Shown here: positions 22,284 to 61,480 of the stretch, in pieces | Position numbering within the stretch: position 1 is the stretch's first letter | How the letters are laid out: each line of letters begins with the position of its first letter | NCBI RefSeq assembly: GCF_000234095.1 | Contig: NZ_JH376800.1 | Coordinates: 425,274 to 489,273, forward strand | Direction: 5' to 3' | Source of the DNA: Centipeda infelix ATCC 43532 | Lineage (GTDB): Bacteria > Bacillota > Negativicutes > Selenomonadales > Selenomonadaceae | DNA: 64,000 bases | Notes under the pieces: generated by a model | The model's input: the letters and a program-made list of their open reading frames with translations, nothing else | Databases searched by the model: none | Told to the model about the DNA's origin: nothing | Translations under genes and position numbers: made by a program

Positions 22284-23480
22284 ATGAGAAAACTCATTGT
22301 ATTCATTATGGCACTCTTTCTGCTCCTGCCTGCAGCATCCACAAATGCTGCGCAGACGTGGCAGCAGATCCACGACCACATTGCCGCTGAGATGAATAAT
22401 GTCTATACGATCTACCAATCAGGCAATGCGGAGGGGGCAAAGGATGCCGTCAATGATATCTACTACGGCATCTATGAAAAGGACGGTCTGGAGAGTGCCG
22501 TGCGCAGCGGGATCTCTTCCAAGAGTGCGAACCTCACGGAGTACCAGTTCTACACGCTGAAAAAGGCGATCCGCTCGGGTGCACCGCAGTCCGAGGTAGA
22601 AGCCGAGGGAAAAAAACTCCTCGATATGGTTCAGGCAGAAGTGACAACCCTCGAGACGGCGGGGGTGCAGTCGGGCGGTTGGGGCATGTTCCTGCAGGCG
22701 TTCCTCATCCTTCTGCGTGAAGGCGTTGAGGCGATCCTCGTACTCGTCGGCATCATCGCCTACCTTGGGCGTGCCGGACACGAGAAGGAACTCTCCACCG
22801 TCTATAACTGGGCGATTGCAGGCGTTATTGCAAGCTTTATCAGTGCCTATCTCTTTGCCGAGATTCTCGACAATACGACGACAACGGGCTCCGGACGTGA
22901 GATCATCGAGGGCTGTACGGCACTCTTCGCCGTCCTTGTCCTCCTCGGCACATCTGCATGGATGGGCGGCAAGTCCAACGCGAAGGCATGGAAATCCTAC
23001 ATTGACAGCCAGGTGAAGCTGACGCTCTCGACGGGGAAATCACGTGCGCTCGGTTTCGCCGTATTCCTCGCCGTCTATCGCGAGGGCGCAGAGGTCATTC
23101 TCTTCTATCAGGCACTCTTCAACAACGCCATCGGCGATGTCGATATGATCTGGGGCGGTTTTGTCGCTGCGTGTGCGGCGCTTGCCTTGCTCTTCTTCCT
23201 CATGCAGCGCGGTGCGCTGCGCATCCCGATCGGTCCGTTCTTCAAGGTGACGAGCGCGTTCATGTTCATTCTCGCCGTTACGTTCCTTGGCGGCGGACTC
23301 AAGGAACTGCAGGAGGCCGATGTGATCTCCACCTCGGTCATCGAGGCGGTTCCCGTGCCGAGCATCGACTTGCTCGGGCTTTATCCCACCTATGAAACCA
23401 TTGTGCCGCAGATTCTGCTGATTGCAGCGGCGGTCGCGATGGTATCATATAGAAAACGCTCTGCTGCGGCAGAGGCGTGA
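22284..23480 (+). CDS. FTR1-family iron permease
   Basis: The 398-residue protein imports iron across the inner membrane. It has a signal peptide (about 1-22), a periplasmic helical domain (about 24-130), then seven membrane helices. The two REXXE iron motifs are REGVE at 145-149 and REGAE at 266-270, matching FTR1/EfeU/FetM-like proteins. The family works with a periplasmic partner; here that is the P19-like protein encoded next. It lies 39 bp after tonB in the operon. Confidence 0.94.
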   Translation: MRKLIVFIMALFLLLPAASTNAAQTWQQIHDHIAAEMNNVYTIYQSGNAEGAKDAVNDIYYGIYEKDGLESAVRSGISSKSANLTEYQFYTLKKAIRSGAPQSEVEAEGKKLLDMVQAEVTTLETAGVQSGGWGMFLQAFLILLREGVEAILVLVGIIAYLGRAGHEKELSTVYNWAIAGVIASFISAYLFAEILDNTTTTGSGREIIEGCTALFAVLVLLGTSAWMGGKSNAKAWKSYIDSQVKLTLSTGKSRALGFAVFLAVYREGAEVILFYQALFNNAIGDVDMIWGGFVAACAALALLFFLMQRGALRIPIGPFFKVTSAFMFILAVTFLGGGLKELQEADVISTSVIEAVPVPSIDLLGLYPTYETIVPQILLIAAAVAMVSYRKRSAAAEA

Positions 23481-23532
23481 GTTTTCCCCGCAAGAGGGAG
23501 CAGTGTTTCATCTTTGTAAGGAGGATTATCCC

Positions 23533-24102
23533 ATGAAGAAATCCGGTCTCAGCATGCTCAAGAAGGCGCTTGCCGTTGGCGCCGTCGCATTCTCTACGTT
23601 TGCGATCAATGCGAATGTCAGCGAAGCTGCGTTCGAGGAGTTCCCGATCGGCGACGAGATTGAGGATACGACGAACCACTTCAAGGTTGCGCTCGTGTAC
23701 TTCCAGCCAGTTACGATGGAGCCTGCCGGCATGAGCCTCCCGGCAGATCAGGCGGATATCCACATTGAGACGGATATCCATGCAACCGAGGGCAACGAGT
23801 GCGGCTTTGGTGTCGGCGAGTGGATTCCCTATCTGACGGTGCACTACAAGTTCACGAAGCGTGAGACGGGCGAGAGCCTCGAAGGCGTATTCATGCCGAT
23901 GAGCGCAGACGATGGTCCGCACTATGGCGCGAATGTCAAGATGCTCGGCGCGGGCACCTATGACTGCGAGTTCACGATCGACAGCCCCGCACGTCAGAAC
24001 TACATGCTCCACACCGATAAGGAGACGGGCGTTCCGGGTCATCTCTGGACCGAGCCGGTCAAGATGAGCTGGGTGTTCAACTACGTTCCGCGTAAGTGGT
24101 AA
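23533..24102 (+). CDS. P19/Tp34-type periplasmic iron-transport protein
   Basis: A secreted protein of 189 residues with a signal peptide (about 1-32, ending near SEAAFEEF) and the P19/Tp34 'Fe2+ transport protein' domain. Candidate metal ligands typical of the family are visible: Met and Glu in VTMEPAGM and IHIETDIHATEG, and later histidines in PHYGANVKM and MLHTDKE. Campylobacter P19 binds copper and iron and works with an FTR1 permease, as the gene order suggests here. AAGGAGG at 23518-23524 fixes ATG 23533. A terminator-like hairpin follows. Confidence 0.92.
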   Translation: MKKSGLSMLKKALAVGAVAFSTFAINANVSEAAFEEFPIGDEIEDTTNHFKVALVYFQPVTMEPAGMSLPADQADIHIETDIHATEGNECGFGVGEWIPYLTVHYKFTKRETGESLEGVFMPMSADDGPHYGANVKMLGAGTYDCEFTIDSPARQNYMLHTDKETGVPGHLWTEPVKMSWVFNYVPRKW

Positions 24103-24172
24103 TTTCAGCTACTCCCGGACGATGACGGCGCGGGATTCCTGTGCCGTACACTGTCCTGCCGGAATTAGAATG

Positions 24173-56357: not shown

Positions 56358-57338
56358 ATGAGTAAATTTGCGCGACGCTTTCTCCTTCTCTTTGTGCTTG
56401 TCGTGGGTATCTCCTTTGCCGTCATCTACACGACGGTGGATATCAATACACTTCATAACCTGACTCGTTTTCATTCGTGGTCACTTCTCCTTGCACTCCT
56501 TGCCGTCGGGCTTGGGATGTTCTTTGACGGCAGCCGCCTCATGCACCTCGTCAAAATCTCCAATGAAAAAATCACCTTGTACCAAGCGGTACAGGTGATC
56601 TTCGGCAATTATTTCCTCGCACTCCTTACACCGGGGGCAACGGGCGGCGCAGTCGCACAGGTCATGTTCCTGCGCCATGCGGGTGTACCTACAGGCAAGG
56701 CTGCGGTGCTCGTCATCGTGCGGACACTGCTCTCAATCTTCTTTCTTGCACTCTGTATGCCGTTTATCTTTCTGCACGATGAGGGCATCGTCCCCGGTGT
56801 GTCGAACGATATTTTGATGGCGGTGACACTCGCGGCATTTCTTGGCATCGTATTCATCGTTGTGGGGGCGCGGCGCGGCTTTCTCGACTACATTGTCGTC
56901 TGGATTGCACGCCGTCTGCGGGACAAGAAGCGGCATCAGCTCTTTGGTCTCTACCGCGACACGAAGAGCGCGATCTCGCTCTTGCTCGGTGCGCCGCGTC
57001 AGATGCTCGTCGTCTTTGCCGAGTCGGGGCTGAACCTCCTCTGTATCTACGCCGTCGTTCCGTGCCTCCTGCTCGGGCTCGGCGTGACCGATGCGGACTG
57101 GTACACCGTCATGGGGCGTATGATTTTCCTCAATATGCTCCTTTACTTCAGTCCGACACCGGGCGGCTCCGGCATTGCTGAGGGCGGATTCGTCTTGCTC
57201 TTTGCGGCAACCGTTCCCGCAGGTACGGTCGGCATCGTCGCCGTCTGCTGGCGGCTCATCGCCGAATACCTCCCGTTCCTCATCGGTTTCTACTATACCG
57301 TCACCGTCTTCGGACGCGAGTTCCTGCGGCGGTATTGA
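56358..57338 (+). CDS. Flippase-like membrane protein (UPF0104, MprF N-domain/YbhN family)
   Basis: A 326-residue protein with about eight membrane helices. Features of the lysylphosphatidylglycerol-synthetase TM family include NYFLALLTPGATGGAVAQ near 89-106 and the closing FSPTPGGSGIAEGGF near 257-271. MprF's flippase domain moves aminoacyl lipids; this one lacks the synthase half, so its lipid is unknown. A terminator follows 19 bp after the stop. Confidence 0.85.
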   Translation: MSKFARRFLLLFVLVVGISFAVIYTTVDINTLHNLTRFHSWSLLLALLAVGLGMFFDGSRLMHLVKISNEKITLYQAVQVIFGNYFLALLTPGATGGAVAQVMFLRHAGVPTGKAAVLVIVRTLLSIFFLALCMPFIFLHDEGIVPGVSNDILMAVTLAAFLGIVFIVVGARRGFLDYIVVWIARRLRDKKRHQLFGLYRDTKSAISLLLGAPRQMLVVFAESGLNLLCIYAVVPCLLLGLGVTDADWYTVMGRMIFLNMLLYFSPTPGGSGIAEGGFVLLFAATVPAGTVGIVAVCWRLIAEYLPFLIGFYYTVTVFGREFLRRY

Positions 57339-57380: not shown

Positions 57381-57409
57381 TTGATAAAGATTTTCATTCG
57401 GCGTATAAT
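57381..57409 (+). promoter_or_regulatory. Promoter of the TonB-dependent receptor
   Basis: TTGATA at 57381-57386 and perfect TATAAT at 57404-57409 with a 17-bp spacer. Confidence 0.8.
57383..57401. promoter_or_regulatory. Fur-box-like operator overlapping the receptor promoter
   Basis: GATAAAGATTTTCATTCGG matches the 19-bp Fur box at 13 positions and fills the space between the -35 and -10 elements, where a repressor would block RNA polymerase. Confidence 0.55.
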
Positions 57410-57467: not shown

Positions 57468-59647
57468 ATGGGAAAACGATTTAAGAATGTCCTCGGGGGG
57501 GGACACTCGCGCTCGCCAGTGCGGTCATTCTACCGTCGGGAGTGTTTGCTGCTGATACGACGCAGGAGGATGCGATTCAGACCTACGAACTGGGCGAGGT
57601 CGAGATTGTCGGACACCATGCGGAGGAACCGGCAACGCAGCAGGAAGAACCGGCGGTCGCATACGCAGGTGGGCAGGTCGCGCGCAAGTCGCAGCTCGGG
57701 GTACTCGGCGAGCGCGATTTTATGGAGACTCCGTTCAATGTGCTGAGCTTCACGGAGGAGCACATTCAGAATCGACAGGCGCAGACCATACAGGATCTTG
57801 TCGCAGATGATCCTGCGGTACAGGAGGCATCTGGTTCGTCTGCGACAAATCTCTGGACGGTACGCGGTATGGAGCTGCAGGGTGGCGATATTGCTTTTAA
57901 CGGGCTATATAATATCGCACCTAGTAATACGAACAGTCTCAATGCGGTGGAGCGTGTGGATGTGCTCAAGGGACCGGGCGCACTCCTTTACGGCATGGCA
58001 CCGAACGGTGGTGTTGGCGGTTCGATCAATCTTGTACCGAAGCGCGCGAAGGATGAGCCAACGCGTCGTTTTGCGCTCTCCTATGGGAACGGCAGCCAGT
58101 TCGGGCAGAGTGTGGATGTCGGCGAGCGCTTTGGTAAGAATAAAGAATATGGCGTTCGTATTAATATTGTGCATCGCAACGGAGCGACCGCGTTTGATCG
58201 TGAGAAACAGGAGACAACGGGGGCAGCGATCGCTCTTGATATGCGCAGAAACAAATTGCGTGCCTCACTTGATGCGGGCTATCTGCATCGGGAATTTAAG
58301 AATGCGACGACTTCGCTGCGCATGTCAAACGCGATGATTGCGGCGTTCGGATCAATTCCGAAGGCCCCATCCTCCAAGCTCAACCTAGGGGAAAACGGAA
58401 CATTCCTCGACGCAAAGGAGCGGTATGGCCTCCTTCGCGTAGATTATGATTTCAACGAGAACTGGTCGGCGTACGCGGCGGCAGGTCTGCGCCACAGCGA
58501 GCAGGACTACGCCTACAATGTATTTCGTCTGACGGCGTTGGACGGAACGGCGCGTGTCATCAACTATGCATATCCCAAAGAGAGCAGGGCGAACACGCAG
58601 GAAATCGGAACAAAGGGCAAATTTCAGACAGGTGACCTCGCCCATGAGATGACTGTAGCTCTTAACCGTACACATTGGACGGCATACACGAATACAAAGA
58701 CGCTCAACGCCTATAATACGAACTTCTATAACATTGTATGGCAGGGGGTACAGGGCTATACGGGATTGTCCTTGCCAAAGACAGGAGAATCTACGCTCTC
58801 GGGGCTTGCTATTACTGATGTAATCACTGTACCGAATGAGAAGTGGCAATTCATTCTTGGAGCGCGTTATCAGAAGATCAAGACGGAAAGTTTCAGTCGT
58901 ACAACGGGACTGCGAACGGCTTCGTATAATGAAGCTGCTTGGAGTCCTGCCTATGCCATTCTTTTCAAGGCGACGCCGACGGCATCTCTCTATGCGACCT
59001 ATATGCAGGGATTGCAGGAGGGAGGGACTGCAGACCGCTGGTCACTTAATGCCGGCGAGGTCTTCGCACCGATCAAGACAAAGTCCACGGAGATGGGCGT
59101 TAAGTTCGATCTGGGCAAATTTGCGACTGCGCTCAGTGTCTATGAGATGCAGAAACCGACGACAATCGATGACTATGTTGCGCCAGGCAGGTATTATCAG
59201 CGTCAAGTGGACTACAAGAGTCGGGGACTTGAGATTTCCTTCTTCGGTGAGCCACACACTGGAACGCGTCTGCTCGGTGGCTTGACATGGATCGACGCAC
59301 GCTATGCACCGGAGAACTACAAGGGCAATACCATTGAGGGGGTTGCGAACAAGAAATTTGTTCTGAGTGTGGAGCAGGATATTCATAGTGTTCCTGGTCT
59401 TTCGCTATCGACACGCTTCCTCTACACGGGCGCGGCATATTATGATCCGAACAACTCCCTGCGCATGGCACCATGGTTCCGTATGGATCTTGGGGCGCGC
59501 TATGCGTTCCACATGGGTGATACGCCCGTTACCGTTCGTCTCGATGTGAACAATCTGCTTGACCGCCGCTATTGGCAGGCGAGCAGCTACCGCGCGAACC
59601 TTGGTGCGCCAAGGAACTTTGTTCTCTCCGTGACGGCGGAGTTCTAA
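57468..59647 (+). CDS. TonB-dependent siderophore-type receptor, frame broken at a G8 tract
   Basis: An outer-membrane receptor whose start (ATG 57468, GAGG upstream) and body are in different frames. The first 12 codons run into eight Gs at 57495-57502; a change to nine (or six) Gs would give a signal peptide (LALASAVILPSGVFAADT) joined to the mature part. The mature protein has a TonB-box-like YELGEVEIVG, a plug (ERDFMETPFNV, VERVDVLKGPGALLYG) and a 22-strand-type barrel ending in FVLSVTAEF, with the NNLLDRRYW repeat. It resembles FhuA/FptA siderophore receptors. As written the gene is off: phase variation, a pseudogene or a sequence error. Confidence 0.88.
57495..57502 (+). repeat. Poly-G tract (8 G) in the receptor signal-peptide region
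   Basis: Eight consecutive Gs shortly after the start codon. The count decides whether the receptor is in frame: 8 is out of frame, 9 or 6 is in frame. Confidence 0.9.
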
Positions 59648-59673: not shown

Positions 59674-59703
59674 AAAAGAACCACGCAGCTGCGTGGTTCT
59701 TTT
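59674..59703. terminator. Palindromic terminator after the receptor gene
   Basis: A perfect 30-bp palindrome of 15-bp half-sites starting AAAAGAACC and ending GGTTCTTTT. Confidence 0.8.
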
Positions 59704-59732: not shown

Positions 59733-61480
59733 GTGACACGCTATAACCGTGCCTTTTTCCGCGACGTGTGGAGTCTCATGCGCGGGTTCTGGCGGCCGCG
59801 CACGCGCTGGACAATGTTTCTGCTTGCCGCTGCAATTCTCGGCTTGCAGGCATACTATGTGTCTGTCATGGTGGACTACAACGCATGGCAGAAAATGTTC
59901 TACGATACCATTCAGGAGATGGATTCGGACAGCTTTTTTTCTATCTGAAATACTGGCCGATGTATATGGTGGCATTCATTGCGATGGAGGTCGGGCGAAA
60001 CTACCTCATGCAGTATCTCGAAATCAAGTGGCGCACATGGCTCGTCGATGATTTTGTGCGCCGCTGGCTCTCGGGGCGCACTTACTATCTCATGCAGATT
60101 GATGAGGAACTGAGTGTCGAGGGGAAAAGCGCCGTCGACAACCCAGACCAGCGCATTACGGACGATGTGAGGCTCTTCGTCTCGTATTTTCTGAATCTGA
60201 CACTTGGCATCTTCAATGCCGCTCTGCGCATTTCGTCCTTTGGTGCGGTGCTCTGGGGGCTGTCTGGGGTGCTTGACATTCCTCTTTTCGGTGAGACGTT
60301 TGCTCTGCCCGGCTATATGGTGTGGCTCGCCATCGCCTATGCTCTCCTCGGCACAGGGGCGACGCTCTGGGCGGGGCGCCCGATCGTGCGTCTCAGCAAC
60401 CGCCAGCAGGAGTATGAGGCAGACCTGCGCTTCGGTCTTGCGCGTCTGCGCGAGCATTTCGAGAGCATTGCGTTCTATGGCGGGGAACAGCGTGAGACGG
60501 TGGGGGCTCTTGACCGATTCAATGATGTGCGGCGAAATTTCTTCAGCCTCATGCTGCATCGCGTCCAACTTACATGGGTGACCGAGCTGCATTGGCGCAT
60601 CGGTTTCCTCTTTCCCTATATGGTCGCTGTACCGCGTATCTTCGCGGGGGAGATGCAGTTCGGCGGGCTCATGCAGACCGCAGTCGCCTTCCAACAGGTT
60701 GTGAACTCGCTTTCCTTTCTCGTCATACGATATTATTCGCCGACGGAGGCATCCATCGCGCAGTTCCAGACGGTCGTACATCGTCTCACGGACTTTCGCA
60801 ATCACATGGAGCAAGTCGAGCGTACGATGTCTGCATCGGATGTGCAGCATACGAAGAATGGAAATGTGCTTGCGGTGGATGGGCTCACGGTGTGTCAGCC
60901 CGATGGTCGTGTCCTGACACACCAGCTCTCGTTTACACTGGCACGCGGGGAACATCTCTTTATCGAGGGTGCGTCCGGGATCGGCAAGAGTACGCTTCTG
61001 CGTGCAATTGCAGGCATCTGGCCGTACGGTTCGGGGACAATCACGATGCCGAAGAACGCGAATATGCTCTTCCTCCCGCAGAAATCCTATCTGCCAATGG
61101 GGACACTACGTGCGGCACTCCTATATCCTGCGGCTGTGAGTGCGGCAGATACGCCTGTGATTGAAAATGCTTTGCGCAGGGCGAACCTTGCGGCATTCAT
61201 CTCACGCCTCGATCAGGAGGAAAACTGGGCGCAGGTGCTCTCACTCGGGGAACAGCAGCGTCTTGCTTTTGCAAAGGCGTTGCTCCTGAGACCGCAATGG
61301 ATCTTCCTCGACGAGGCAACTTCCGCGCTCGACGAGGAGAATGAGGATCGTATGTATCAACTGCTTCAGACGGAATGCTCTGACGCAGCAGTCGTCAGTA
61401 TTGCGCATCGACGGCGTGTAGGTGCCTATCACGAACGCAAACTTTTGCTTTCGGCGGGTGGAGGTTGGCATCTGGAATAG
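59733..61480 (+). CDS. SbmA/BacA-like ABC transporter (fused permease-ATPase), frame broken at a T7 tract
   Basis: The protein joins an ABC_membrane_2-type six-helix domain to an ATPase. The start is GTG 59733 with GGGAG upstream; the frame ends after 71 codons at seven Ts (59934-59940). One extra T restores FFFYLKYW and a single reading frame to 61480, about 582 residues. The second part has Walker A GASGIGKST, signature LSLGEQQRL and Walker B WIFLDEATS. Relatives (SbmA, BacA, Rv1819c) import peptides, vitamin B12 or antibiotics. It lies just after the TonB receptor, so shared cargo is possible. Confidence 0.85.
59934..59940 (+). repeat. Poly-T tract (7 T) at the frameshift in the ABC transporter
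   Basis: Seven Ts followed by CTATCTGA give a premature stop; eight (or five) would be in frame. Confidence 0.85.

Follow-up and report, generated by a model that had tools for sequence, protein, structure and literature searches.

A poly-G tract splitting a signal peptide in a TonB-dependent siderophore receptor gene: a candidate slipped-strand switch with counterparts in related genomes

The receptor gene studied here raises a simple question: is it broken, or is it switched off? A run of eight guanines close to the start codon puts the coding sequence out of frame, and the initial annotation, which described the promoter, the ribosome-binding site, the start codon and the receptor as all intact, proposed phase variation. 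The window, that is the whole stretch of 64,000 nucleotides that was analysed, is contig C4, 425274-489273, of a draft genome of 2.41 Mb in 29 contigs (G000). It was compared with 13 sister genomes, which together with G000 make a set of 14 genomes of the same genus, one genome per species. The features around the receptor and the poly-G tracts of the genome are collected in Table 1.

Table 1. Features at the receptor locus (window coordinates) and homopolymer tracts of at least eight G (or C) in G000
Feature	Coordinates	Strand	Tract	State	Remark
Promoter, sigma-70-type TTGATA-N17-TATAAT	57381-57409	+			sequence reading; G001 equivalent TTGACA-N17-TATAAT
Fur-box-like match, weak, overlapping promoter	57383-57401	+			13/19 to the consensus used; G001 also 13/19
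Ribosome-binding site GAGGAAA	57458-57464	+			by eye
Start codon and first nine codons MGKRFKNVL, charged signal-peptide start	57468-57494	+
Receptor tract, proposed switch	57495-57502	+	G8	OFF	G001 orthologue has G9
Signal-peptide remainder TLALASAVILPSGVFA, receptor frame	57503-57550	+			cleavage site inferred by eye
Mature TonB-dependent siderophore receptor, Plug and beta-barrel, open to stop	57551-59647	+
Terminator-like perfect palindrome AAAAGAACCACGCAG-CTGCGTGGTTCTTTT, 3' of receptor	59674-59703	+			by eye
SbmA/BacA-like ABC transporter gene	59733-61480	+			frameshifted by one base at T7 59934-59940
L127			G13	ON	TonB receptor by Pfam
L130			G10	OFF	TonB receptor by Pfam
L133			G10	ON	TonB receptor by Pfam
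L136			G8	OFF	giant ORF
L137			G10	ON	TonB receptor by Pfam
L141			G10	ON	giant ORF
L142			G9	ON	TonB receptor by Pfam
L131	G000:C2:76534-76542		G9		upstream of MBOAT gene
L140			G9		upstream of tpiA (gene named by eye)
L139	G000:C4:189031-189040		G10		in ORF of about 390 codons, no Pfam match
L138			C9		in HicB-like ORF (named by eye)
Six remaining tracts			G8		in seemingly ordinary genes (by eye)

The G8 tract in front of the receptor is real. The ATG (57468-57470) is followed by GGA AAA CGA TTT AAG AAT GTC CTC and then by the eight Gs; the tract begins after codon nine and not, as first described, after the twelfth, codons 10-12 being the glycines of the in-frame reading. The arithmetic by which nine or six Gs would restore the frame is correct. 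Past the tract the receptor frame reads TLALASAVILPSGVFA-ADTT..., and since the tract separates the charged start from TLALASAVILPSGVFA, it is the signal peptide itself that is split. As judged by a hydropathy rule only, the signal peptide appears solely in the reading joined across the G8. The ATG frame as read with eight Gs gives a nonsense peptide of 92 residues, ending at 57746, and the receptor frame is open to its stop at 59645-59647, over 714 codons from 57503 or 701 from a GTG at 57542.

The elements that had been called intact, promoter, ribosome-binding site, start codon and receptor frame, are so. The Fur-like score of 13 is reached at five plus-strand positions of the window and exceeded at none, and two of the five are here (57377 and 57383). 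The receptor matches the Plug (PF07715, 59.2 bits) and barrel (PF00593, 116.8 bits) families, and it scores 327 bits against TIGR01783, the TonB-siderophore subfamily, with a curated cut-off of 223.5. The FhuA and FoxA models also match, with scores under their cut-offs. A ferric siderophore is the putative ligand.

We think it likely that this G8 tract acts as a contingency locus of the slipped-strand type, in one of a set of eight genes for surface proteins in this genome. Slippage during replication would make the G run gain and lose bases at high frequency. At every third count the frame would be kept and the full signal peptide joined to the receptor (ON); at the other counts, including the eight Gs found here, the product would be a short nonsense peptide (OFF). 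The loci would switch independently, and each cell would show a different combination of surface proteins. The change of length within a culture, its rate, its reversibility and its effect at the cell surface are the parts of the switch that we infer. What is usually looked for in a homopolymer switch is present, a run of about eight or more bases near the 5' end where a change in count shifts the frame of an otherwise intact gene. It was counted against a switch that G8 is short, six of the seven other tracts of the set in this genome having 9-13 bases.

Matches to the 5' region of the receptor at the DNA level were found in three of the 14 genomes: G000 itself, G001, and G003, where the match is weak and covers 81 bases. 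The comparison of the tract between related genomes, proposed earlier as a check, gave an orthologue in G001, a genome in a single contig, with 88% identical residues and with nine Gs at the same place, in frame. It is the only close orthologue of the receptor among the 14 genomes, and its signal peptide is visible by eye, yet failed the strict hydropathy-based rule used below; both this and a dS near saturation were counted against the switch. Over 714 codons the pair has a dN of 0.070 and a dS of 1.34 by NG86, a ratio of 0.052 in which one of six segments was not computable, and YN00 gives a ratio of 0.065. A dN/dS of about 0.05 indicates that the receptor is under purifying selection, and the decayed sequence that a fixed frameshift might leave downstream was not seen in these codons. 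Among 60 glycines conserved between the two proteins the codon is unchanged at 21, and GGG in both at four. The G run has been kept in both genes while glycine codons elsewhere drifted, which was counted in favour of the switch.

The tract is absent in four remoter receptors of the same genus, with 41-44% identity (L004, L006, L007 and L008). A fragment of a receptor paralogue in G000 itself, comprising the N-terminal end (L143, G000:C4:526697-527074; 44% identical), ends early near the end of the contig. A wider scan of contigs with the receptor gave 61 loci at 34-38% identity, in Pseudomonas, Janthinobacterium and others, which are uninformative on the tract. The plasmid searches gave no near match, only matches of less than 60% identity, and a scan of viral contigs with a neighbouring gene gave 21 loci at 35-45%.

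The adjoining ABC transporter gene is also frameshifted, which could mean a local sequence error or gene decay and was counted against the switch. Two neighbouring genes are thereby OFF, and at the position of the T7 in the ABC gene both G001 and G013 carry TTCTTTTT instead. To judge the reliability of the frames, ORFs of G001 were compared with the window from 6439 onward; the 55 retained as orthologues include at least one antisense ORF, and of three multi-frame cases one (23393-24108) is an antisense ORF. Only two genes in the compared part are frameshifted, the receptor at its G8 and the ABC gene at its T7. A sequencing or assembly error, with a true count of nine, a gene that is simply on and a tract that only encodes a fixed run of glycines, would fit the draft state of the genome and the fact that the only two frameshifted genes are neighbours, both broken at homopolymers. 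However, nine of the 11 homopolymers of at least seven bases inside compared genes are in frame, which suggests that homopolymer calls are mostly right, and we find such an error unlikely. The mutS gene is intact in G000, so a defect in mismatch repair through its loss is not the reason.

The two adjacent frameshifts can also be read as a fixed loss of function, the receptor and the transporter belonging to a disused transport system and having become pseudogenes recently. In G013 the ABC gene (80% identical) directly follows the flippase gene, with no receptor between them (L338), so the receptor is a variable part of the locus, and it may either have been inserted in G000 and G001 or have been lost in G013. 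The flippase gene of the window is at 56358-57338, upstream of the receptor. Such variability agrees with a loss of function, but the 714 codons without further damage, under the selection described above, and a frameshift placed exactly in the tract that is shared with an ON orthologue do not, and we regard young pseudogenes as distinctly improbable.

Runs of seven to 13 Gs occur 64, 8, 4, 5, 0, 0 and 1 times in G000, and the fall-off among the long runs is slower than the step from G7 to G8. With the window as training sequence, Markov models of order 1-4 predict per genome 27-65 runs of at least eight Gs (18 seen), 6-17 of at least nine (10 seen), 1.3-4.6 of at least ten (6 seen) and 0.01-0.09 of at least 13 (1 seen). 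Taken alone, the numbers of runs show little more than that the longest are modestly in excess. Their use as proof in themselves was dropped, as the models predict more runs of at least eight than are present; this was counted against the switch, and weight was therefore put only on the position of the tracts, the length distribution and the history in orthologues. A lone G8 run is unremarkable; the position in the signal peptide is beyond chance.

All 18 tracts of at least eight were read by eye. In eight cases the tract is on the coding strand and either coincides with a signal peptide or comes shortly after it. Six of these genes encode TonB receptors and two encode giant surface proteins; five are in frame and three out of frame. 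Behind the tract, the giant ORFs have 2336 codons (L136) and more than 2650 codons (L141), and no Pfam family was found in the first 1333 residues of either. The barrel-like C-terminal end of L136, ...GGIQVNWAF, leads us to guess at an autotransporter. A mechanical rule looked for a start codon, a positive charge, hydropathy, a small-residue motif, a ribosome-binding site and 200 open codons after the tract. In its strict form it accepted 6/18 tracts of at least eight Gs against 0/64 G7 runs (Fisher p 5.3e-5), and five of the ten with at least nine (p 1.6e-5); three looser forms accepted 7/18 against 0 or 1 of 64 (p 8.4e-6 to 5.8e-5). L137 was missed by every rule and was added by eye. Runs of five and six Gs also occur in signal peptides, which was counted against the switch: 4/331 G5 and 3/38 G6 runs passed the strict rule; these controls come from the fetched stretches alone, where surface genes are over-represented.

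The pattern recurs in the sister genomes. Runs of exactly nine Gs are found in all 14 genomes and runs of at least ten in 11 of them. The 13 sisters have 66 tracts of at least nine Gs, of which L176-L178 were judged by the strict rule alone; this rule accepts 11 (8 ON, 3 OFF), and four more were recognised by eye, L158 being OFF and L164, L173 and the G001 orthologue (L209) ON. These 15 tracts come from eight sisters (G001, G002, G003, G005, G006, G007, G008 and G013), and no signal-peptide tract of at least nine Gs was found in G004, G009, G010, G011 and G012. The remaining 51 are elsewhere, many of them intergenic or in ordinary genes. The same G9-bearing sequence is found three times, with N stretches, in the single-contig genome G005 (L202-L204, G005:C1:968747-981141); it looks like a repeat or an assembly oddity, and enters the 66 as three. 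Own and sister genomes together have 23 tract genes, 16 ON and 7 OFF, and all seven OFF loci (three own, four in sisters) have at least 700 open codons behind the tract. OFF alleles are seen in single-contig genomes too (L163 in G005 and L158 in G013), and these, like the genome-wide enrichment, would be left unexplained by an error at the present locus.

The counts also bear on two other explanations. Slippage at homopolymers is a known phenomenon, and if the ribosome or the RNA polymerase slips on the G run, this could yield some full-length receptor through the region of the tract, where the receptor frame is open; the tract would then be a device for low-level expression and not a genetic switch. 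That most tracts are in frame fits an alternation between ON and OFF better than a device that depends on being out of frame, and we hold this explanation to be very improbable. The tracts could also be neutral, if, in a genome rich in G, it is by coincidence that glycine codons at the end of the signal peptide are GGG. This agrees with totals of G≥8 that are not above the Markov expectation, with the glycines that recur at this place in orthologues through other codons, and with the G6 runs in signal-peptide regions. It does not agree with the G7 runs, which are not placed there, nor with seven of 23 tract genes being out of frame, which is unexpected of neutral glycine codons in genes under selection, and neutrality seems to us the least probable of the explanations considered.

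We followed the tract through orthologues in three receptor families, reading 10/30 fetched loci in the L133 family, 14/30 in the L137 family and 9/20 in the L127 family; the choice, made by eye, fell on the nearest loci or on those extending to the N-terminus. L282 (L133 family) and L318 (L137 family) were left out, the receptor start not being where expected, and L359, a partial homologue in G009, was not read. The nine orthologues of the L127 family (72-100% identical) have G13, G12, G8, an interrupted G3-C-G7, and in five cases no tract (one with G5); all nine are in frame at the start, and the protein of the G8 member is 98% identical. Nine members of the L133 family could be used: four genomes have an in-frame G10, G005 has a G10 that is out of frame, and at four loci the tract is interrupted and in frame. 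Among the thirteen of the L137 family, a G10 and a G9 keep the frame, whereas a G11 and a further G10 do not; two members have an in-frame G6, and seven, which are in frame at the start, have no tract. Two of these seven are broken further downstream, in G013 (L319) and G009 (L324; also listed as L308/L324), which speaks for the pseudogene explanation and shows that some such receptors do decay in this genus. Tract length differs between genomes and both states are present, with G8 and G9 at the present locus and G6-G13 in the other families. By these histories the glycine stretch is a tolerant one, which becomes a pure G run and loses that purity again.

Slipped-strand phase variation is the best explanation for the enrichment in position, for the recurrence in sisters, and for the differences between orthologues in tract, frame and interruption. 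The proposal of phase variation, first made for a single gene, gains support from the in-frame G9 orthologue, the purifying selection, the open frames behind OFF tracts, the recurrence and the tract histories, and now extends to eight own genes and to eight sister genomes. Whether this amounts to a contingency system of the genus, which we take to be one of Firmicutes with an outer membrane, is less certain. We lean slightly towards the wider reading, in which at least nine of the 14 genomes would have signal-peptide poly-G switches, gained and interrupted repeatedly, and also poly-G spacers in promoters, so that receptors and envelope modifications would be combined at random in each cell. 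Some mucosal pathogens alternate their surface proteins randomly. If the present bacteria, probably Selenomonas-like, do so with iron receptors and large surface proteins, it would affect their encounters with phages, colicin-like toxins and antibodies as well as the competition for iron. It would also imply that such genes are wrongly annotated as broken in single reference genomes, and the survey yields a concrete list of loci for typing.

The mechanism would be a known one in a new place, and a new occurrence in this group. The opa genes of Neisseria have a pentamer repeat in the region coding for the signal peptide, and several of these paralogous surface proteins switch independently. Here too the repeat is in the signal-peptide sequence, but it is a homopolymer, and the protein family is different. 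Listeria monocytogenes is a bacterium without an outer membrane. In inlA, its gene for a surface protein, the loss of one base from a 5' poly(A) tract gives a short peptide, and an interrupted tract keeps the frame (PMC2831843); that text names neither Selenomonas nor Veillonella. The 5' homopolymer and the interrupted in-frame tracts are similar here, the difference being that inlA has poly-A. A parallel in function is with hmbR and hpuA of Neisseria meningitidis, phase-variable haemoglobin receptors in which the count of a poly-G tract sets ON or OFF (PMC3786947). Both are iron-acquisition receptor genes with the poly-G inside the reading frame, as here, but in Neisseria the variation was shown in isolates with a phenotype, and here it comes from genome comparison only, in what is probably another bacterial group, with the tract in the signal peptide and a receptor of the TIGR01783 subfamily. 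Campylobacter and Neisseria have phasomes, with many repeat-driven switches per genome surveyed across the genus (PMC6321876, PMC5953494). The number of switches in one genome is a likeness, and our literature searches turned up no phasome survey that names the present group. A search by title and abstract for phase variation in Selenomonas and Negativicutes, with subscription papers and preprints mostly outside its scope, gave no poly-G switch; one paper on Negativicutes concerns invertons, judging by the start of its abstract.

It was also possible to observe poly-G tracts in other kinds of places. The tract of L139 is possibly a further switch, and that of L131, upstream of a gene for an MBOAT O-acyltransferase, a possible promoter tract; L131 and L170 (G002) have the identical flank AAAATGTCTTGC-G9-ACTTCTATG. 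An element GGCAGGAAAATCC[AG]C, followed by G9 or G12 and then AATAATA, was seen at L165, L171, L186 and L191 (G001, G002, G006 and G011), with G12 in one genome and G9 in three. It resembles a promoter of sigma-H type with the G tract as spacer. Genes that modify the envelope are common phase-variable targets elsewhere, and tracts at L162 (G11, G005), L174 (G9, G002) and L145 (G10, G002) were found inside ORFs that by eye resemble those of a glycosyltransferase and methyltransferases.
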